From Candidatus Uhrbacteria bacterium (lineage in GTDB: Bacteria; Patescibacteriota; Patescibacteriia; UBA9934), in assembly GCA_943359525.1 (NCBI GenBank), contig CALRHV010000008.1:1-41761 (forward strand): 41,761 bases of DNA, read 5' to 3'. This document shows, piece by piece, positions 5,583-36,356 of the stretch. A model generated the notes under the pieces. It made no database searches. It saw only the letters and a list, made by a program, of their open reading frames with translations, and had not been told where the DNA came from. The position numbers were made by a program, and so were the translations under genes. Within the stretch, counting starts at the first letter, position 1; each line of letters opens with the position of its first letter.

Positions 5583-5608
5583 GTCATCCCCGTGTAGGCG
5601 GGGATCCA
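5583..5608 (+). repeat. Solo REP-like sequence GTCATCCCCGTGTAGGCGGGGATCCA
   Basis: 25/26 match to 4025-4050. Confidence 0.85.
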
Positions 5609-15919: not shown

Positions 15920-15959
15920 CCTGCGAGAGATCCTTCGGCATTCGCCTCAGGATGACTGA
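15920..15959. repeat. Solo REP-like end CCTGCGAGAGATCCTTCGGCATTCGCCTCAGGATGACTGA
   Basis: Same family as ends at 23349, 23704, 33137, 33187, 35236 and 35597. Confidence 0.8.
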
Positions 15960-21733: not shown

Positions 21734-22966
21734 ATGAAGGAGATAACAAATCGCTGTATGTCCTTTTTGATCTTTTGGAAACGCGAAAAACGGAGGGTTA
21801 CATTGCTTGTCGTTGCCATAAGTTGTACAGCAATGGTGACGACTTTTTTGTGGTTTCGTGCAGCTCCGCTTTCGGTTTCTGCTGTCACACCACGCGTGAA
21901 TAGTGCTGTAGACGCTGTGCTTTCAGCGCGGAAGGCGACGGTGCTTGATTTAGACGACGTGCCATTTGGTAATGATCAAACCATCAACGTTCTCGTGCTC
22001 GGACTCGATTCAAGGAAAGAAGGAATCGAGCAACATTGCGACGCGATCCACATGGTGTCTGTCAACACAAAAGAATGGACGGTACTCATGACAAGTGTGC
22101 CTCGTGGAACCTATGCGTACATTCCACCGGGGACGTATGCCGACAACGAATACTATTTGGCGAATGCGTGTGCCTTTGCCGGTTTGGACTACGGCGTGGA
22201 GCAGATTGAACGCATTGTTGGCGTGAAAGCGGACTACGTGGTGACTGCAGGATTTTCTCAGCTGCTTGGTATCTTGCGTACATTGGAATTGCCAACCACC
22301 GAAAGTTTGCAATGGTTGCGTAATCGCCAGAGTTATAGAATTGGCGACCCACAGCGGAGTCAAAATCAAGCGGTTTTTCTGAAAGACGTCGCAATGAAGT
22401 TGCTCAATGGCAACGGCATTCCAAATATTCTGTTCCATCTTTTGTACTCGTTCGTTGATACCGACATGGACGAAAGCACTGCGCGTGCGCTGTACGACGG
22501 ATTGCTTCTTCACGGTATTGTGAGCCGTCCCGACGATATCGTGCTCGCAATGAAACCGCATTACGATGTGCAGGACATCCATTTCGATCCAGCCCAGGCG
22601 AGCAAGCAAGTTGACGATCTTCTCGCGAAGCTTGAAGGGCGATTGTCAAAATTCGACCTTGCTGGTCGCACGATTGATGACGTGCAGCGTGATCTCGTCG
22701 TATATCTTGAATCGGTTCTGACAGAATCGGAAGGATCGATCATCGATGTCATCGATCAGCAGCTGTGGTTGCAGGTGGAGGAAGAGGGAACTCGAGAATC
22801 TTTGCAGTATCGATTCATCGAGGCTCGCACGAAGGAGCTACAAGCAAAGGGCCACGATGCGGCGGTGCAATTCATTGCCGACTATATTTTAGAAAAGCAA
22901 ACGTTGGGATCGCTGGTGTGGGAGGCAAAAGGACGGGCGCTGCTCGAGGCGATCTTGGCGAAGTGA
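21734..22966 (+). CDS. LytR-CpsA-Psr (LCP) family protein
   Basis: TM anchor; INVLVLGLDSRKEGIEQHCDAIHMVSVNTKEWTVLMTSVPRGTY. Confidence 0.75.
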   Translation: MKEITNRCMSFLIFWKREKRRVTLLVVAISCTAMVTTFLWFRAAPLSVSAVTPRVNSAVDAVLSARKATVLDLDDVPFGNDQTINVLVLGLDSRKEGIEQHCDAIHMVSVNTKEWTVLMTSVPRGTYAYIPPGTYADNEYYLANACAFAGLDYGVEQIERIVGVKADYVVTAGFSQLLGILRTLELPTTESLQWLRNRQSYRIGDPQRSQNQAVFLKDVAMKLLNGNGIPNILFHLLYSFVDTDMDESTARALYDGLLLHGIVSRPDDIVLAMKPHYDVQDIHFDPAQASKQVDDLLAKLEGRLSKFDLAGRTIDDVQRDLVVYLESVLTESEGSIIDVIDQQLWLQVEEEGTRESLQYRFIEARTKELQAKGHDAAVQFIADYILEKQTLGSLVWEAKGRALLEAILAK

Positions 22967-22983
22967 TTGTGGTGTGATACGAT
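22955..22983 (+). promoter_or_regulatory. Possible promoter for the structured RNA
   Basis: TTGGCG - 17 nt - TACGAT overlapping the end of the LCP gene. Confidence 0.35.
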
Positions 22984-22987
22984 TCTT

Positions 22988-23320
22988 TCACTGTTTTTGA
23001 TGGTGCGTGGGTTGTGAACCGCAATGGAGGGCTGTGTTTTGCGGGAGACACGGAAAAAATTGCGGTTCGCCGGCGTGCCGTACGATACGGCACTCGGGAA
23101 GTTTACCTGTCGGCGTTCGAAAGATCGCTCGCGAGAAAGTGCCCGTGGGGCCTGGGTGGTATCGCGCACCCCGGGGAAGCCGTCACCGCTCAGCCGAAAG
23201 GTTGCGCGTTCGGTCGTAAGACCGTTTATGACGGCTCCCCGTCTTCCGCCGATCTTACGATCGATCACAACACACGAACGGAGCAAGACAAAACGGTCTG
23301 CTCCGTTTTGCTTTTTACGG
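22988..23320 (+). ncRNA. Candidate structured non-coding RNA of unassigned family
   Basis: Stems 23016-23025/23059-23068 (10 bp), 23075-23082/23086-23093 (8 bp), 23069-23074/23109-23114, GGGG..GCCGTCA 23173-23185 / TGACGGC.CCCC 23229-23240; GNRA loops at 23196-23199 and 23216-23219; terminator CGGAGCA...TGCTCCGTTTTGCTTTTT. Confidence 0.6.
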
Positions 23321-23348
23321 AGAAAAATACATATCATAATGAATCCCG

Positions 23349-23735
23349 CAGTCATCCTGAGCGCATGCGAAGGATCTCCGTCGGTTATTCACCAGATACT
23401 TTCATATACGTCCTTCCAGTCAGGATTCGTGGAACAAATGAGATTGTTTTTCTTCGCTCGAATCCAACCTTTCATTTCTTTTTCTCGAGTAATCGCTGCA
23501 TACGCTTCTCCAACTGGTTCAAAGTATACGAGAATATTACATCGGTATTTCTTTGTGAAACCATCAATTATCCCACTGCGATGCTCTTCGATTCGTCGTT
23601 GGAGATTATTCGTTATACCGATGTACACAACCGTCCTCGCGATATTCGTAAGTATGTAAACGAAGAAGACTTTTTCATCCATAATGATACGCGGATAAAC
23701 CTACGGAGATCCTTCGCATGCGCTCAGGATGACTG
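23349..23735 (-). mobile_element. GIY-YIG cassette 1: ORF bounded by perfect 32-bp inverted repeats
   Basis: 23349-23380 CAGTCATCCTGAGCGCATGCGAAGGATCTCCG and its exact reverse complement at 23704-23735. Confidence 0.7.
23389..23682 (-). CDS. Small GIY-YIG nuclease
   Basis: VYILTNIARTVVYIGITNNLQRRIEEHR, REKEMKGW; ~78% identical by eye to 35288-35581. Confidence 0.9.
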   Translation of the reverse strand: MDEKVFFVYILTNIARTVVYIGITNNLQRRIEEHRSGIIDGFTKKYRCNILVYFEPVGEAYAAITREKEMKGWIRAKKNNLICSTNPDWKDVYESIW

Positions 23736-23783: not shown

Positions 23784-24383
23784 TTACGCTTTCGATCTTC
23801 CCGTCATCGCGCTCGCCAATGTCACTTCGTCGGCGTATTCAATGTCGGCGCCCATGGGGAGACCGCGGGCAAGGCGAGTCATTGATTTCTCGAAGCTTGA
23901 AAGCTGGCGCTGTAAATACATAATTGTCGTTTCGCCGTGGACGTCGGGGGAGAATGCAAGGATGAATTCTGTGATGGACGGTGAGTTTTTGACAAGATCA
24001 AGGAGCGCTTTGACGTTGAGCATTTCTGGCGTGCGGCCGTCGATGGGATTTAATGTGCCGCCGAGCACAAAATAGCGACCTTTATATACGTTTGTTGCTT
24101 CGATGGTAGAAATATCGCGAGCCTCGGCAACAATACAGAGCTTTGTTGCGTCGCGATTTGGGTCTGCACAAATTTCGCAGATATCGTTTTCTGCAAACGT
24201 AAAACATGTTTGGCAAAGGGTGATGTTCCCAAGATCCACAATGGCGCGACCAATGCTTGCGAGTTCAAGTTTGCTGAAATGTAACAAAGCGAACGCGTAA
24301 CGAAGTGCGGTTTTTGGCCCCACTCCCGGAAGGCGACCCAATGCAGCCGCAGCATTATGAATGGGAGTGGGGAACCGTCTCAT
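23784..24383 (-). CDS. recR: Recombination mediator RecR
   Basis: LGRLPGVGPKTALRYAF, zinc-finger CQTCFTFAENDICEIC, ARGLPMGADIEYADEVTL. Confidence 0.95.
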   Translation of the reverse strand: MRRFPTPIHNAAAALGRLPGVGPKTALRYAFALLHFSKLELASIGRAIVDLGNITLCQTCFTFAENDICEICADPNRDATKLCIVAEARDISTIEATNVYKGRYFVLGGTLNPIDGRTPEMLNVKALLDLVKNSPSITEFILAFSPDVHGETTIMYLQRQLSSFEKSMTRLARGLPMGADIEYADEVTLASAMTGRSKA

Positions 24384-33136: not shown

Positions 33137-33220
33137 GTCATTCTGAGCGTAGCGAAGAATCTCTCGTAGGGTAGCCCGGGTTCACCTGCGAGAGATCCTT
33201 CACTTCGTTCAGGATGACTG
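33137..33220. repeat. ORF-less inverted pair of the GTCATYCTGAGCG...GGATCT repeat (MITE-like)
   Basis: 33137-33170 GTCATTCTGAGCGTAGCGAAGAATCTCTCGTAGG vs 33187-33220 CGAGAGATCCTTCACTTCGTTCAGGATGACTG in inverted orientation. Confidence 0.85.
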
Positions 33221-33604: not shown

Positions 33605-35206
33605 ATGACGGCCGAAAATTCGGGAAATGCGCGTCGTCCACGTCCGGTTGTTCTTTTTGTTTTAGACGGTTTTGGCATTGCACCCGATGCTGAAGGAAAC
33701 GCTATTACCCGTGCGAATACTCCAACGTTTCACGCAATGACGTCGCGGTATCCATCCATGACGTTGCGGGCTTCCAGCGAGGAGGTCGGTTTGAACTGGG
33801 GCGAAATGGGAAACAGCGAGGTCGGTCACTTGGCCATTGGTGCCGGTCGTGTGTATTATCAAACGCTCCCACGTTTGGGGAAGTCTATTGCGAGTGGGGA
33901 ATTCATGAAGAATCCTGCACTCGTGAAGGCATTTGAAAAAATAAAACACACCGGTGGGGTGTTGCACCTCATGGGCATTTTGTCGTCGGGAAAAGTGCAC
34001 GGATTTGATGAGCACTGTTACGCGTTGCTCCGCATGGCAAAAGAATACGGACTACAGAAGGTTGCGGTTCACGCAGTACTCGACGGTCGCGATACGCTGT
34101 ACAACTCTGGTTTAGATTTTGTGAAGAATGCGCTCGCGCAGATGAAGGAAATCGGCATTGGTGAGCTTGCAAGTATGTGTGGAAGATTCTTTGCGATGGA
34201 TCGCGATAATCGATGGGACCGAATTGAAAAAGCATACAACGCGATGGCAATTGGGAAGGCGGACGTGATGGTGGAGAACGCGGTGGAAGCAATTGAGCTT
34301 TCGTATTCGCGCGAAGTGTACGATGAAGAATTCGTTCCAACTGTCATCACGAAGAAAGGAAAGCCTGTCGCAACTATAGGTGCGGACGACGCAGTGATCT
34401 GCTGGAACTTTCGCCCGGATCGATCCCGCGAAATTACTAGGGCATTTGTGGTGCCGGCGTTTGATAAGTTTCCACGTGAGTACATTAAGAGTCTAACGTT
34501 TGTGACAATGACGGAGTATGAGGAAGGGCTTCCGGTCGACGTTGCATATGCGCCAGAAAAGATTTCAAATCCGTTGGCTGAAGTGATTGCGAATGCGGGG
34601 CTTGTTCAGCTCCATATTGCCGAAACAGAGAAATATGCGCACGTGACGTTTTTTTTGAACGGGACGCGTGAAGAACCGTTTCCGCACGAGGATCGCGTGC
34701 TCATTCCGTCGCCACACGTCGCAAGTTACTCGGAACAGCCGGCAATGAGCGCTGTTGCAATTACGGATCGTGTCGTCCAAGAAATCAAACGTGGGAATTA
34801 CGATGTGATTCTTGGAAATTTCGCGAACGCGGACATGGTTGGCCATACGGGGAACCTTGCTGCGACGATTGTTGCAATCGAAACGATTGACGCATGTTTG
34901 GCACGCATCATCGATGCTGTTCTTGCGGCCGACGGTGTGTTGCTCGTGACTGCCGATCATGGAAATGCGGAAGAAGTGCTCAATTTGCAAACACACGATA
35001 TCGACAAAGAACACAGCACGAATCCTGTTCCGTTTTGGATCATCGGCAAACAATTTGAAGGCAAGCCTTCTATTTGCGGGGACGTCCCCAGCGGCGACCT
35101 TTCTCTCATGCCTCCCTGCGGCATGCTGGCCGACGTTGCTCCAACTATTCTCGCGATTTTGGGGATTCCGCAGCCGGCAGAGATGACAGGAACGGCGTTG
35201 CTTTGA
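33605..35206 (+). CDS. gpmI: 2,3-bisphosphoglycerate-independent phosphoglycerate mutase
   Basis: VVLFVLDGFGIAPDAEGNAI, MGNSEVGHLAIGAGRVYYQ, HAVLDGRDT, RDNRWDRIEKAY, NFANADMVGHTGN, TADHGNAEEVL. Confidence 0.96.
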   Translation: MTAENSGNARRPRPVVLFVLDGFGIAPDAEGNAITRANTPTFHAMTSRYPSMTLRASSEEVGLNWGEMGNSEVGHLAIGAGRVYYQTLPRLGKSIASGEFMKNPALVKAFEKIKHTGGVLHLMGILSSGKVHGFDEHCYALLRMAKEYGLQKVAVHAVLDGRDTLYNSGLDFVKNALAQMKEIGIGELASMCGRFFAMDRDNRWDRIEKAYNAMAIGKADVMVENAVEAIELSYSREVYDEEFVPTVITKKGKPVATIGADDAVICWNFRPDRSREITRAFVVPAFDKFPREYIKSLTFVTMTEYEEGLPVDVAYAPEKISNPLAEVIANAGLVQLHIAETEKYAHVTFFLNGTREEPFPHEDRVLIPSPHVASYSEQPAMSAVAITDRVVQEIKRGNYDVILGNFANADMVGHTGNLAATIVAIETIDACLARIIDAVLAADGVLLVTADHGNAEEVLNLQTHDIDKEHSTNPVPFWIIGKQFEGKPSICGDVPSGDLSLMPPCGMLADVAPTILAILGIPQPAEMTGTALL

Positions 35207-35235: not shown

Positions 35236-35623
35236 GTCATCCTGAGCGTATGCGAAGGATCTCTCGCAGGTTTGTTGGCTAAAGTTTATGGATGAAAAAG
35301 TATTCTTCGTTTACATGCTCACGAATATTTCACGATCGGTTCTCTACGCTGGCGTTACAAATAATCTTCAGCGACGAATGGCAGAGCATCGATCCGGCAT
35401 CATCGACGGCTTCACAAAAAAATACCGATGCACGATCCTTGTGTATTTCGAAGCGACTGGGGAAGCTTATGCCGCAATTACTCGAGAAAAAGAAATAAAA
35501 GGGTGGACACGAGCAAAGAAGAACGTCATGGTGAATTCTGTGAATCCAAATTGGGATGATCTGTACGAAAGTATTTGGTGAACGATAGCCGGCGAAAGAT
35601 CCTTCGCATACGCTCAGGATGAC
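35236..35623 (+). mobile_element. GIY-YIG cassette 2: ORF bounded by perfect 27-bp inverted repeats
   Basis: 35236-35262 GTCATCCTGAGCGTATGCGAAGGATCT and its exact reverse complement 35597-35623. Confidence 0.7.
35288..35581 (+). CDS. Small GIY-YIG nuclease
   Basis: VYMLTNISRSVLYAGVTNNLQRRMAEHR, REKEIKGW; paralogue of 23389-23682. Confidence 0.9.
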   Translation: MDEKVFFVYMLTNISRSVLYAGVTNNLQRRMAEHRSGIIDGFTKKYRCTILVYFEATGEAYAAITREKEIKGWTRAKKNVMVNSVNPNWDDLYESIW

Positions 35624-35630
35624 TGATCCT

Positions 35631-36356
35631 ATGCAATCCACAAAAACCGTCCTCAAAACCCTCACCAAATTCTCCCTCCTCTACCCCGATCTTGGCGCTC
35701 TACACGTCGGCACGCCGTATCACATGATTGTGATGGTCGCGTTATCGGCGCGAACAAGGGACGAGCAGATTTTGAAACTTGCGCCGGGGTTCTTTAAGGC
35801 TTTTCCGACGGTGAACGATCTTGCCGTTGCCGATATCGGGTCGATCACGAAGGCGATCAACACGATCGGGCTGTACAAACAGAAGGCGAAAAACTTGAAA
35901 TCGATGGCACTGATGATCGTGTCCGAATTCGATGGGACTGTTCCGCGAACCCTCGAAGAACTCGTTCGCCTCCCTGGCGTTGGCCGGAAAACCGCGAGCG
36001 TTATTCTCGTTGCGGCATTCGATACGCCGGCGATCGCTGTGGATACGCACGTGTATCGGGTTACGAATCGATTAGGTTGGGTGAAAACCAAGACGGTGGA
36101 AGCCACCGAGCAGGCGCTTCTCAAAATCATTCCGAAGTCGATGCAGCCGATCGTGAATCGCGTCTTTGTTCCCTTCGGCCGTACCATCTGTATCGCAAAA
36201 CCCCGCTGCTGGGCGTGTCCGCTTGTGAATGAATGTACGTTTGCGCAAAAGAATCTTATCCCTCCGTCCAACAAAGAGAAGATTCTGAATACGATACAAT
36301 CCATGCGTAACGGGATTCGAATTCTTAAAGAAGCCTTACATGCTGCACTTCGATGA
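35631..36356 (+). CDS. nth: Endonuclease III
   Basis: LVRLPGVGRKTASVIL (HhH), AVDTHVYRVTNRLGW, 4-Cys cluster CIAKPRCWACPLVNEC. Confidence 0.92.
   Translation: MQSTKTVLKTLTKFSLLYPDLGALHVGTPYHMIVMVALSARTRDEQILKLAPGFFKAFPTVNDLAVADIGSITKAINTIGLYKQKAKNLKSMALMIVSEFDGTVPRTLEELVRLPGVGRKTASVILVAAFDTPAIAVDTHVYRVTNRLGWVKTKTVEATEQALLKIIPKSMQPIVNRVFVPFGRTICIAKPRCWACPLVNECTFAQKNLIPPSNKEKILNTIQSMRNGIRILKEALHAALR

Follow-up and report, generated by a model that had tools for sequence, protein, structure and literature searches.

RAYTs are the partners of GTAG REPs. Another group of repeat-associated enzymes, the GIY-YIG site-specific single-strand nucleases (Ssn), is reportedly described in a 2025 article in Nature Communications, which is said to report thousands of homologues and their NTS repeats. 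The Neisseria member reportedly acts on a repeat of hundreds of copies and affects transformation.

The CGTC-tagged REPs described by Di Nocera in 2013 'apparently lack a dedicated transposase' (PMC3733652). They are defined by an unpaired (C/T)GTC tag, a stem beginning with AT, a loop of 4–5, a continuous stem of 8–9 bp and a CCA tail, and families were found in alphaproteobacteria and Neisseria (PMC3733652). Transposase genes were checked in that study, GIY-YIG is nowhere mentioned in it, and it was suggested that the element responsible might have died out (PMC3733652). Two groups of TnpA-REP enzymes are distinguished, one having co-evolved with imperfect palindromes and the other with perfect ones (PMC8266576).

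GIY-YIG cassettes in the window

The window, that is, the whole stretch of DNA analysed here (41,761 nucleotides), is the whole of contig 8 of a genome of 864,550 bases. Cassette 1, composed of a GIY-YIG ORF enclosed by two inverted REPs (table 1), is located between a 410-aa ORF (21734–22966, +) and recR (23784–24383, −). An earlier note on this DNA had described a 97-aa GIY-YIG ORF in a 387-bp unit with perfect 32-bp inverted ends, and the description is accurate on both points: the ORF matches the Pfam GIY-YIG family PF01541 with an E-value of 6e-15, and the 32-mer CAGTCATCCTGAGCGCATGCGAAGGATCTCCG of the left end is repeated on the right as its exact reverse complement. The ends have no further matches when up to three mismatches are allowed, and none is expected by chance. 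In the folded form of each end, a GA/GA internal loop separates a stem of 5 bp from a further 2 bp closed by a loop of 4 nt, which bears out the tandem G.A mismatches noted earlier. No target-site duplication, the mark of a classical insertion sequence, is visible next to cassette 1.

The numbering of this unit as the first was also apt, as there is a second cassette in the window, with a closely similar ORF. Its neighbours are a 533-aa ORF (33605–35206, gpmI-like) and a 245-aa ORF (35619–36356, endonuclease III-like). A third member of the enzyme family in the same genome is carried by contig C7; its ends (AGTC-ATCCCCGC-GTAG-GCGGGGAT-CCAG) differ in sequence from those of cassettes 1 and 2.

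Table 1. Positions of the cassettes, their components and other REPs in the window.
Feature	Position	Strand	Remarks
Cassette 1 (REP, GIY-YIG ORF, inverted REP)	23349..23735	-	387 bp
Cassette 1, left REP end	23349..23380	+	tag AGTC facing outward; stem class AT-C-CT-GA
Cassette 1, right REP end	23704..23735	-	perfect inverted copy of left end
Cassette 1, 97-aa GIY-YIG nuclease ORF	23389..23682	-	Y9, Y20, G22, R30, H34, E67 and N86 all present
Cassette 1, codons of residues 72-77 (G-W-I-R-A-K)	23452..23469	-	predicted REP-reading segment between two helices
Cassette 2 (REP, GIY-YIG ORF, inverted REP)	about 35236..35623	+	
Cassette 2, left REP	35236..35261	+	tag CGTC
Cassette 2, right REP	35598..35623	-	tag AGTC
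Cassette 2, 97-aa GIY-YIG ORF	35288..35581	+	78% identical to cassette 1 ORF; complete catalytic set
REP dimer, cassette stem class	33137..33218	33137-33161 +, 33194-33218 -	no ORF between
Solo REP, cassette stem class	15929..15956	-	
REP dimer, perfect-stem (CGTC-1-like) class	4025..4091		matches contig C7 enzyme
Solo copy, perfect-stem (CGTC-1-like) class	5583-5606		

REPs of the same kind are dispersed through the genome. The stem class of the window (GTCATYCTGAGC..GCGAAGRATC) is represented by at least 22 hairpins, only four of which are cassette ends. In having REPs on either side of the enzyme gene and further copies of the same class at other sites, the cassettes are organized like a REPtron. 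The ORF was also scanned for an HUH motif or the catalytic tyrosine of a transposase, as in RAYTs, and only GIY-YIG was found.

Association of the enzyme family with hairpins

The family was searched in 85,462 species genomes with an alignment of six sequences as query, and the best 80 loci were taken. These span Clostridia, Chloroflexota, Bacteroidota, Omnitrophota, Spirochaetota, Proteobacteria, Patescibacteria and others. A hairpin was scored, within 250 bp, where GTC was followed by a stem of 5 bp with AT at its start, a loop of 4–45 bases and then C. Among the 74 of these best 80 loci that have full flanks, the GTC-AT..AT-C hairpin is present on the left in 60, on the right in 63 and on both sides in 51, versus 12, 18 and 0, respectively, of 389 control windows shifted by 900–2200 bp at the same loci. 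A search free of any motif gave inverted pairs at 31 of 76 loci versus 4 of 404 controls; GTCAT or ATGAC is carried by 23 of the 31 pairs, versus 7% of background 30-mers.

An independent draw from the class of the window gave at least one hairpin in 23 of 26 cases and hairpins on both sides in 16, the nearest tag facing outward on the left in 17 of 19 and on the right in 18 of 20. In the pooled non-redundant set, drawn mostly from many phyla, a hairpin lies within 250 bp in 130 of 135 loci, and on both sides in 89. The outward-facing unit in this set has a median span of 397 bp, with a median distance from REP to ORF of 38 bp on the left and 21.5 bp on the right.

A small sister GIY-YIG subfamily (loci L172–L201), searched using a protein of a same-genus genome, is common in the same class as the window. 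None of 27 genes of this subfamily has a hairpin nearby (Fisher p about 5e-26 versus the pooled set). Together with the shifted windows, none of which carries hairpins on both sides, this count rules out chance pairing.

The earlier note proposed the GIY-YIG enzyme as the dedicated partner of one REP-like family, a proposal that would fail if homologues usually lacked such ends. REP ends are indeed present in the homologues, alike in architecture but with other stem sequences. The pairing thus stands, across phyla, with a change of partner: this is a hairpin superfamily and not a single 32-bp end. A uniform 32-bp end as the mark of the family is ruled out, the architecture alone being common to homologues. 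Sequence comparison indicates that each enzyme clade has its own stem class within the hairpin superfamily.

Hairpin classes and enzyme residues

There are five main stem classes: AT-N-Y-T-GA, AT-N-Y-C-GA, AT-T-G-C-GA and two perfect-stem classes, CCCG-like (which includes CGTC-1) and CTTG-like. On a tree of 135 proteins, the REP class requires 18 changes versus 52.1 with shuffled labels, and none of 200 shuffles is as low. Enzyme clades cross phyla. Paralogues of one genome belong to different REP classes (genomes G274, G062, G248 and G211), and because these same-genome paralogues match different classes, the REP background of the host is ruled out as the cause of the match. The distribution indicates that hairpin class follows the enzyme and not the host.

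The class signal is concentrated in the segment K71-x72-x73-x74-R75-x76-x77-K78. The typical segment is K-G-W-(L/T/K)-R-x-K-K for the NYTGA class, K-K-W-R-R-E-K-K for NYCGA, K-(G/A)-G-S-R-x-K-K for TGCGA (G73 in 17 of 18, S74 in 18 of 18), K-K-W-x-R-x-W-K for CCCG (W77 in 16 of 17) and K-(N/R)-W-(H/N)-R-x-W-K for CTTG (W77 in 13 of 13). Drawing only on relatives less than 60% identical elsewhere in the protein, residues 72, 73, 74, 76 and 77 predict the class in 97.4 of 119 cases (82%), the rest of the protein in 34.4 (29%) and a majority guess in 42; these training figures carry some hindsight, since the class labels were refined once, after the loop sequence was seen to have misfiled some TGCGA hairpins. 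With the segment columns removed, the tree gives 43 changes versus 73 for shuffled labels and has few well-supported branches. Repeated independent switching of the residue code is likely, although with so few supported branches each test had one or two independent pairs to draw on, too few for formal proof.

A draw from a second phylum, in the alphaproteobacteria (the class of the L071 genome), gave matches in 52 of 116 genomes. The strict hairpin is present at 22 of 29 alphaproteobacterial loci, on both sides at 12, and variant stems were found at L266, L270, L275 and L282. Out-of-sample prediction of the class, trained on the earlier loci, was right for 14 of 20 alphaproteobacterial loci, or for 18 of 20 with the two perfect-stem classes merged, a merging made after the result was seen.

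Genome-wide co-occurrence of one REP class with the presence of the enzyme is weak, because REPs outlast enzymes: TGCGA REPs are present in 4 of the 20 no-match genomes listed versus 118 of 287 overall. The genome of the window itself has 19 TGCGA-class REPs, yet no TGCGA-type enzyme was found in it; the enzyme is therefore not needed for REP upkeep. The repeats look as though they had outlived a lost enzyme.

Enzyme fold and active site

Residues Y9, Y20, G22, R30, H34, E67 and N86 are invariant in 54 homologues (a set that leaves out six rows from plasmid records), which assigns the enzymes to the GIY-YIG superfamily (PF01541). The nearest solved folds are those of the UPF0213 protein BH0048, Slx1 and the UvrC N-terminal domain. 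In the AlphaFold model (pLDDT 94.8), residues 72–74 form the turn between helix 60–71, which bears the catalytic E67, and helix 75–85. The class-predicting residues are thus placed by the model in this turn and at the start of the next helix, and the turn would be expected to touch the hairpin.

Empty sites

At the recR locus, the ORF to the left of cassette 1 is directly next to recR in three sister species, and there is no REP. Besides the cassette itself, about 400 bp of flanking sequence distinguish the cassette 1 locus from this empty site. The roughly 380 bp to its left (22967–23348), which lie outside the REP unit and contain terminator-like inverted repeats, are also absent from the sister species. 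At the second locus, little or nothing separates the gpmI-like gene from the nth-like gene in genomes G001 and G002; in G004 the gap is longer but cassette-free. In a further genome, G003, contig 6 starts (L152, position 1) within a few bases of the counterpart of the right end of cassette 2, where the repeat perhaps broke the assembly.

A similar situation is found in Azospirillum lipoferum 4B (L164), where a REP dimer, the ORF and another REP dimer lie between sufB and sufC, inside the suf gene run. In three relatives, 94–96% identical over the flanks, the unit is absent and the gap between sufB and sufC is 87–129 bp. For Shinella, the relatives without the unit are distant (only 79% identical), and the Rhizobium and Planktothrix plasmid records gave no clean pair of strain-level empty sites. 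The empty alleles at recR, nth and sufB–sufC contain no REP that could be an intact recognition site, a count that species divergence leaves in some doubt.

The presence/absence polymorphism that the earlier note expected in sister strains thus exists between sister species, at the recR and nth loci; all differences are between species, whose flanking sequences differ as well, and excision or insertion was not observed at the level of strains. Self-mobilization of the cassette is plausible.

Distribution in named organisms

The loci of named organisms come from plasmid-collection records. The enzyme gene lies amid CGTC-type REPs in Azospirillum lipoferum, Rhizobium sp. CIAT894, Shinella, Sinorhizobium meliloti, Aeromonas caviae and Planktothrix. 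The Neisseria gonorrhoeae homologue, the sole family match in its record, lies amid an array of dRS3/CGTC-1 (dRS3-like) repeats. The REPs are on one side only in Spirosoma, and inverted pairs of variant sequence (GTCAC.. and GTCGC..) occur in Sphingobium and Novosphingobium. Hairpins are found only at a distance in Photobacterium (L171), and there is no CGTC-type hairpin by the enzyme gene of Rhizobium tumorigenes (L166) or Sinorhizobium sp. K101 (L170).

On Planktothrix plasmids (L160, L208), the enzyme gene and its REPs are located between an MmeI-type restriction gene and the DISARM gene drmA; on a related plasmid, other genes fill this gap. Contig 5 of G274 (L217) carries two identical enzyme ORFs, 696 bp apart and with identical REP ends, which represent a tandem duplication of the unit.

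Proposed mechanism and alternatives

We favour, with moderate confidence, the interpretation that the cassette is a GIY-YIG counterpart of the REPtron, whose enzyme would recognize and nick its own REP hairpin and so spread REPs and sometimes the cassette. The small nuclease would recognize the hairpin form of its own CGTC-type REP class and would most likely nick the REP in single-stranded form, which could arise on the lagging strand, for example, or in DNA entering the cell. Repair or recombination after the cuts would spread REPs of the same class, mostly as solo copies or head-to-head dimers, and occasionally the entire REP–ORF–REP unit would be copied to a new site. The components of this interpretation are not equally secure. 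That the enzyme recognizes its REP is very probable from the sequence associations, which also argue strongly for direct binding. Single-strand nicking, suggested by the fold and by what is reported of the Ssn enzymes, is probable. We lean only slightly towards the view that such nicks lead to the spread of REPs and, at times, of the cassette, although this appears to be the best reading of the anatomy and the empty sites. A point against spreading is that, in some genomes, a REP class is present but the enzyme that would match it is not. To our knowledge, GIY-YIG enzymes have no covalent intermediate of the kind used in HUH-type strand transfer.

A domesticated nuclease of the Ssn type, not mobile, could cut incoming or exposed single-stranded DNA at REPs and so tune natural transformation or repair, the flanking REPs marking or insulating its own gene. 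The gonococcal homologue amid its repeat array would suit such a role, as would the meningococcal enzyme, reportedly a modulator of transformation, and the conserved catalytic residues, which imply that activity is selected. The genes, however, are patchy, occupy another locus in each species, occur as same-genome paralogues of different classes and leave empty sites in close relatives; this is unlike a stable housekeeping gene, and we consider the domesticated role unlikely. Homing is still less probable. Here, the nuclease would cut an ORF-less REP or REP pair, and cassette-templated repair would copy the ORF in; the empty sites without any REP at recR, nth and sufB–sufC, the lack of the additional domain with which homing GIY-YIG enzymes bind DNA and the target left intact in the cassette's own ends all speak against it, even though GIY-YIG domains are typical of homing endonucleases (PMC1564403) and the ORF, with a REP on either side, looks as though set within a dimer, of which an ORF-less example exists at 33137–33218.

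The short distances between the REPs and both ends of the ORF would allow the REPs to act in transcripts, the enzyme binding or cutting them in its own gene or message and thereby limiting its expression, with the spread of REPs otherwise caused. Such autoregulation seems very improbable: the ends point outward as inverted repeats, matching REPs are scattered genome-wide, and autoregulation alone leaves the joint movement of REP and ORF unexplained. Many of these genomes are rich in REPs, which are common in loosely packed intergenic DNA and might by chance surround small accessory genes there; given the shifted windows, the sister subfamily and a stem class that follows five enzyme residues, this hitch-hiking has a negligible probability.

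In the widest form of the REPtron-like mechanism, the whole CGTC-type REP superfamily in many phyla would have been made and spread by this GIY-YIG family, each enzyme reading its hairpin by way of residues 72–77 at a helix-turn-helix junction. There would then be a second REP-spreading system, convergent with the RAYTs and built on an unrelated nuclease; this widest form is tentative, and we stop a little short of expecting it. As an intact enzyme family predicts the repeat class, the origin and spread of CGTC-type REPs become directly testable. A protein-to-hairpin code in a protein of fewer than 100 residues might also help in choosing or designing single-strand-specific nucleases.

Comparison with known systems

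We take the cassette enzymes to be, most likely, members of the Ssn single-strand nuclease family: both are small GIY-YIG enzymes tied to a repeat, and the repeat association by which the family is reportedly defined is found here in the hairpin pairing and in the gonococcal member amid dRS3. The earlier note knew of no formal description; the enzymes are probably not wholly undescribed, as the Ssn article reportedly describes them. We know of no account in the Ssn work of inverted-REP-bounded cassettes, empty sites, a link to CGTC REPs or a residue code. A literature search, whose reach did not extend to the 2025 article, found no paper tying GIY-YIG to REPs. By sequence and fold, the nearest solved structures are UPF0213 proteins (PDB 1zg2, 1ywl); the count of 0 of 27 without REPs refers to the sister subfamily of the same genomes and is not a figure for the UPF0213 proteins themselves.

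The window ends resemble CGTC REPs in their tags (AGTC/CGTC), stem (ATCCT) and loops (GCAT/GTAT), but differ in the GA/GA internal loop and in the tails (CTCCG, CTCTC and CTTTC instead of CCA). They are therefore a relative of the CGTC REPs outside the four named families. The left end of the contig C7 enzyme (L008) has the continuous stem and CCA tail of the CGTC REPs, and CGTC REPs flank enzyme genes in Azospirillum, Rhizobium, Shinella, Sinorhizobium, Neisseria and Aeromonas. The CGTC-REP superfamily, without a dedicated enzyme as of 2013, thus appears to gain a likely partner.

The closest parallel is with the REPtrons formed by RAYT/TnpA-REP enzymes and GTAG REPs: in both systems, a nuclease gene is bordered by inverted REPs, and the genome contains solo and dimeric REPs (PMC3733652, PMC8266576). 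The two differ in the nuclease, GIY-YIG here versus HUH/Y1, and in the tag, (C/T/A)GTC here versus GTAG. The perfect and imperfect hairpin classes of the GIY-YIG family are a striking parallel to the two palindrome groups of the TnpA-REP enzymes (PMC8266576).
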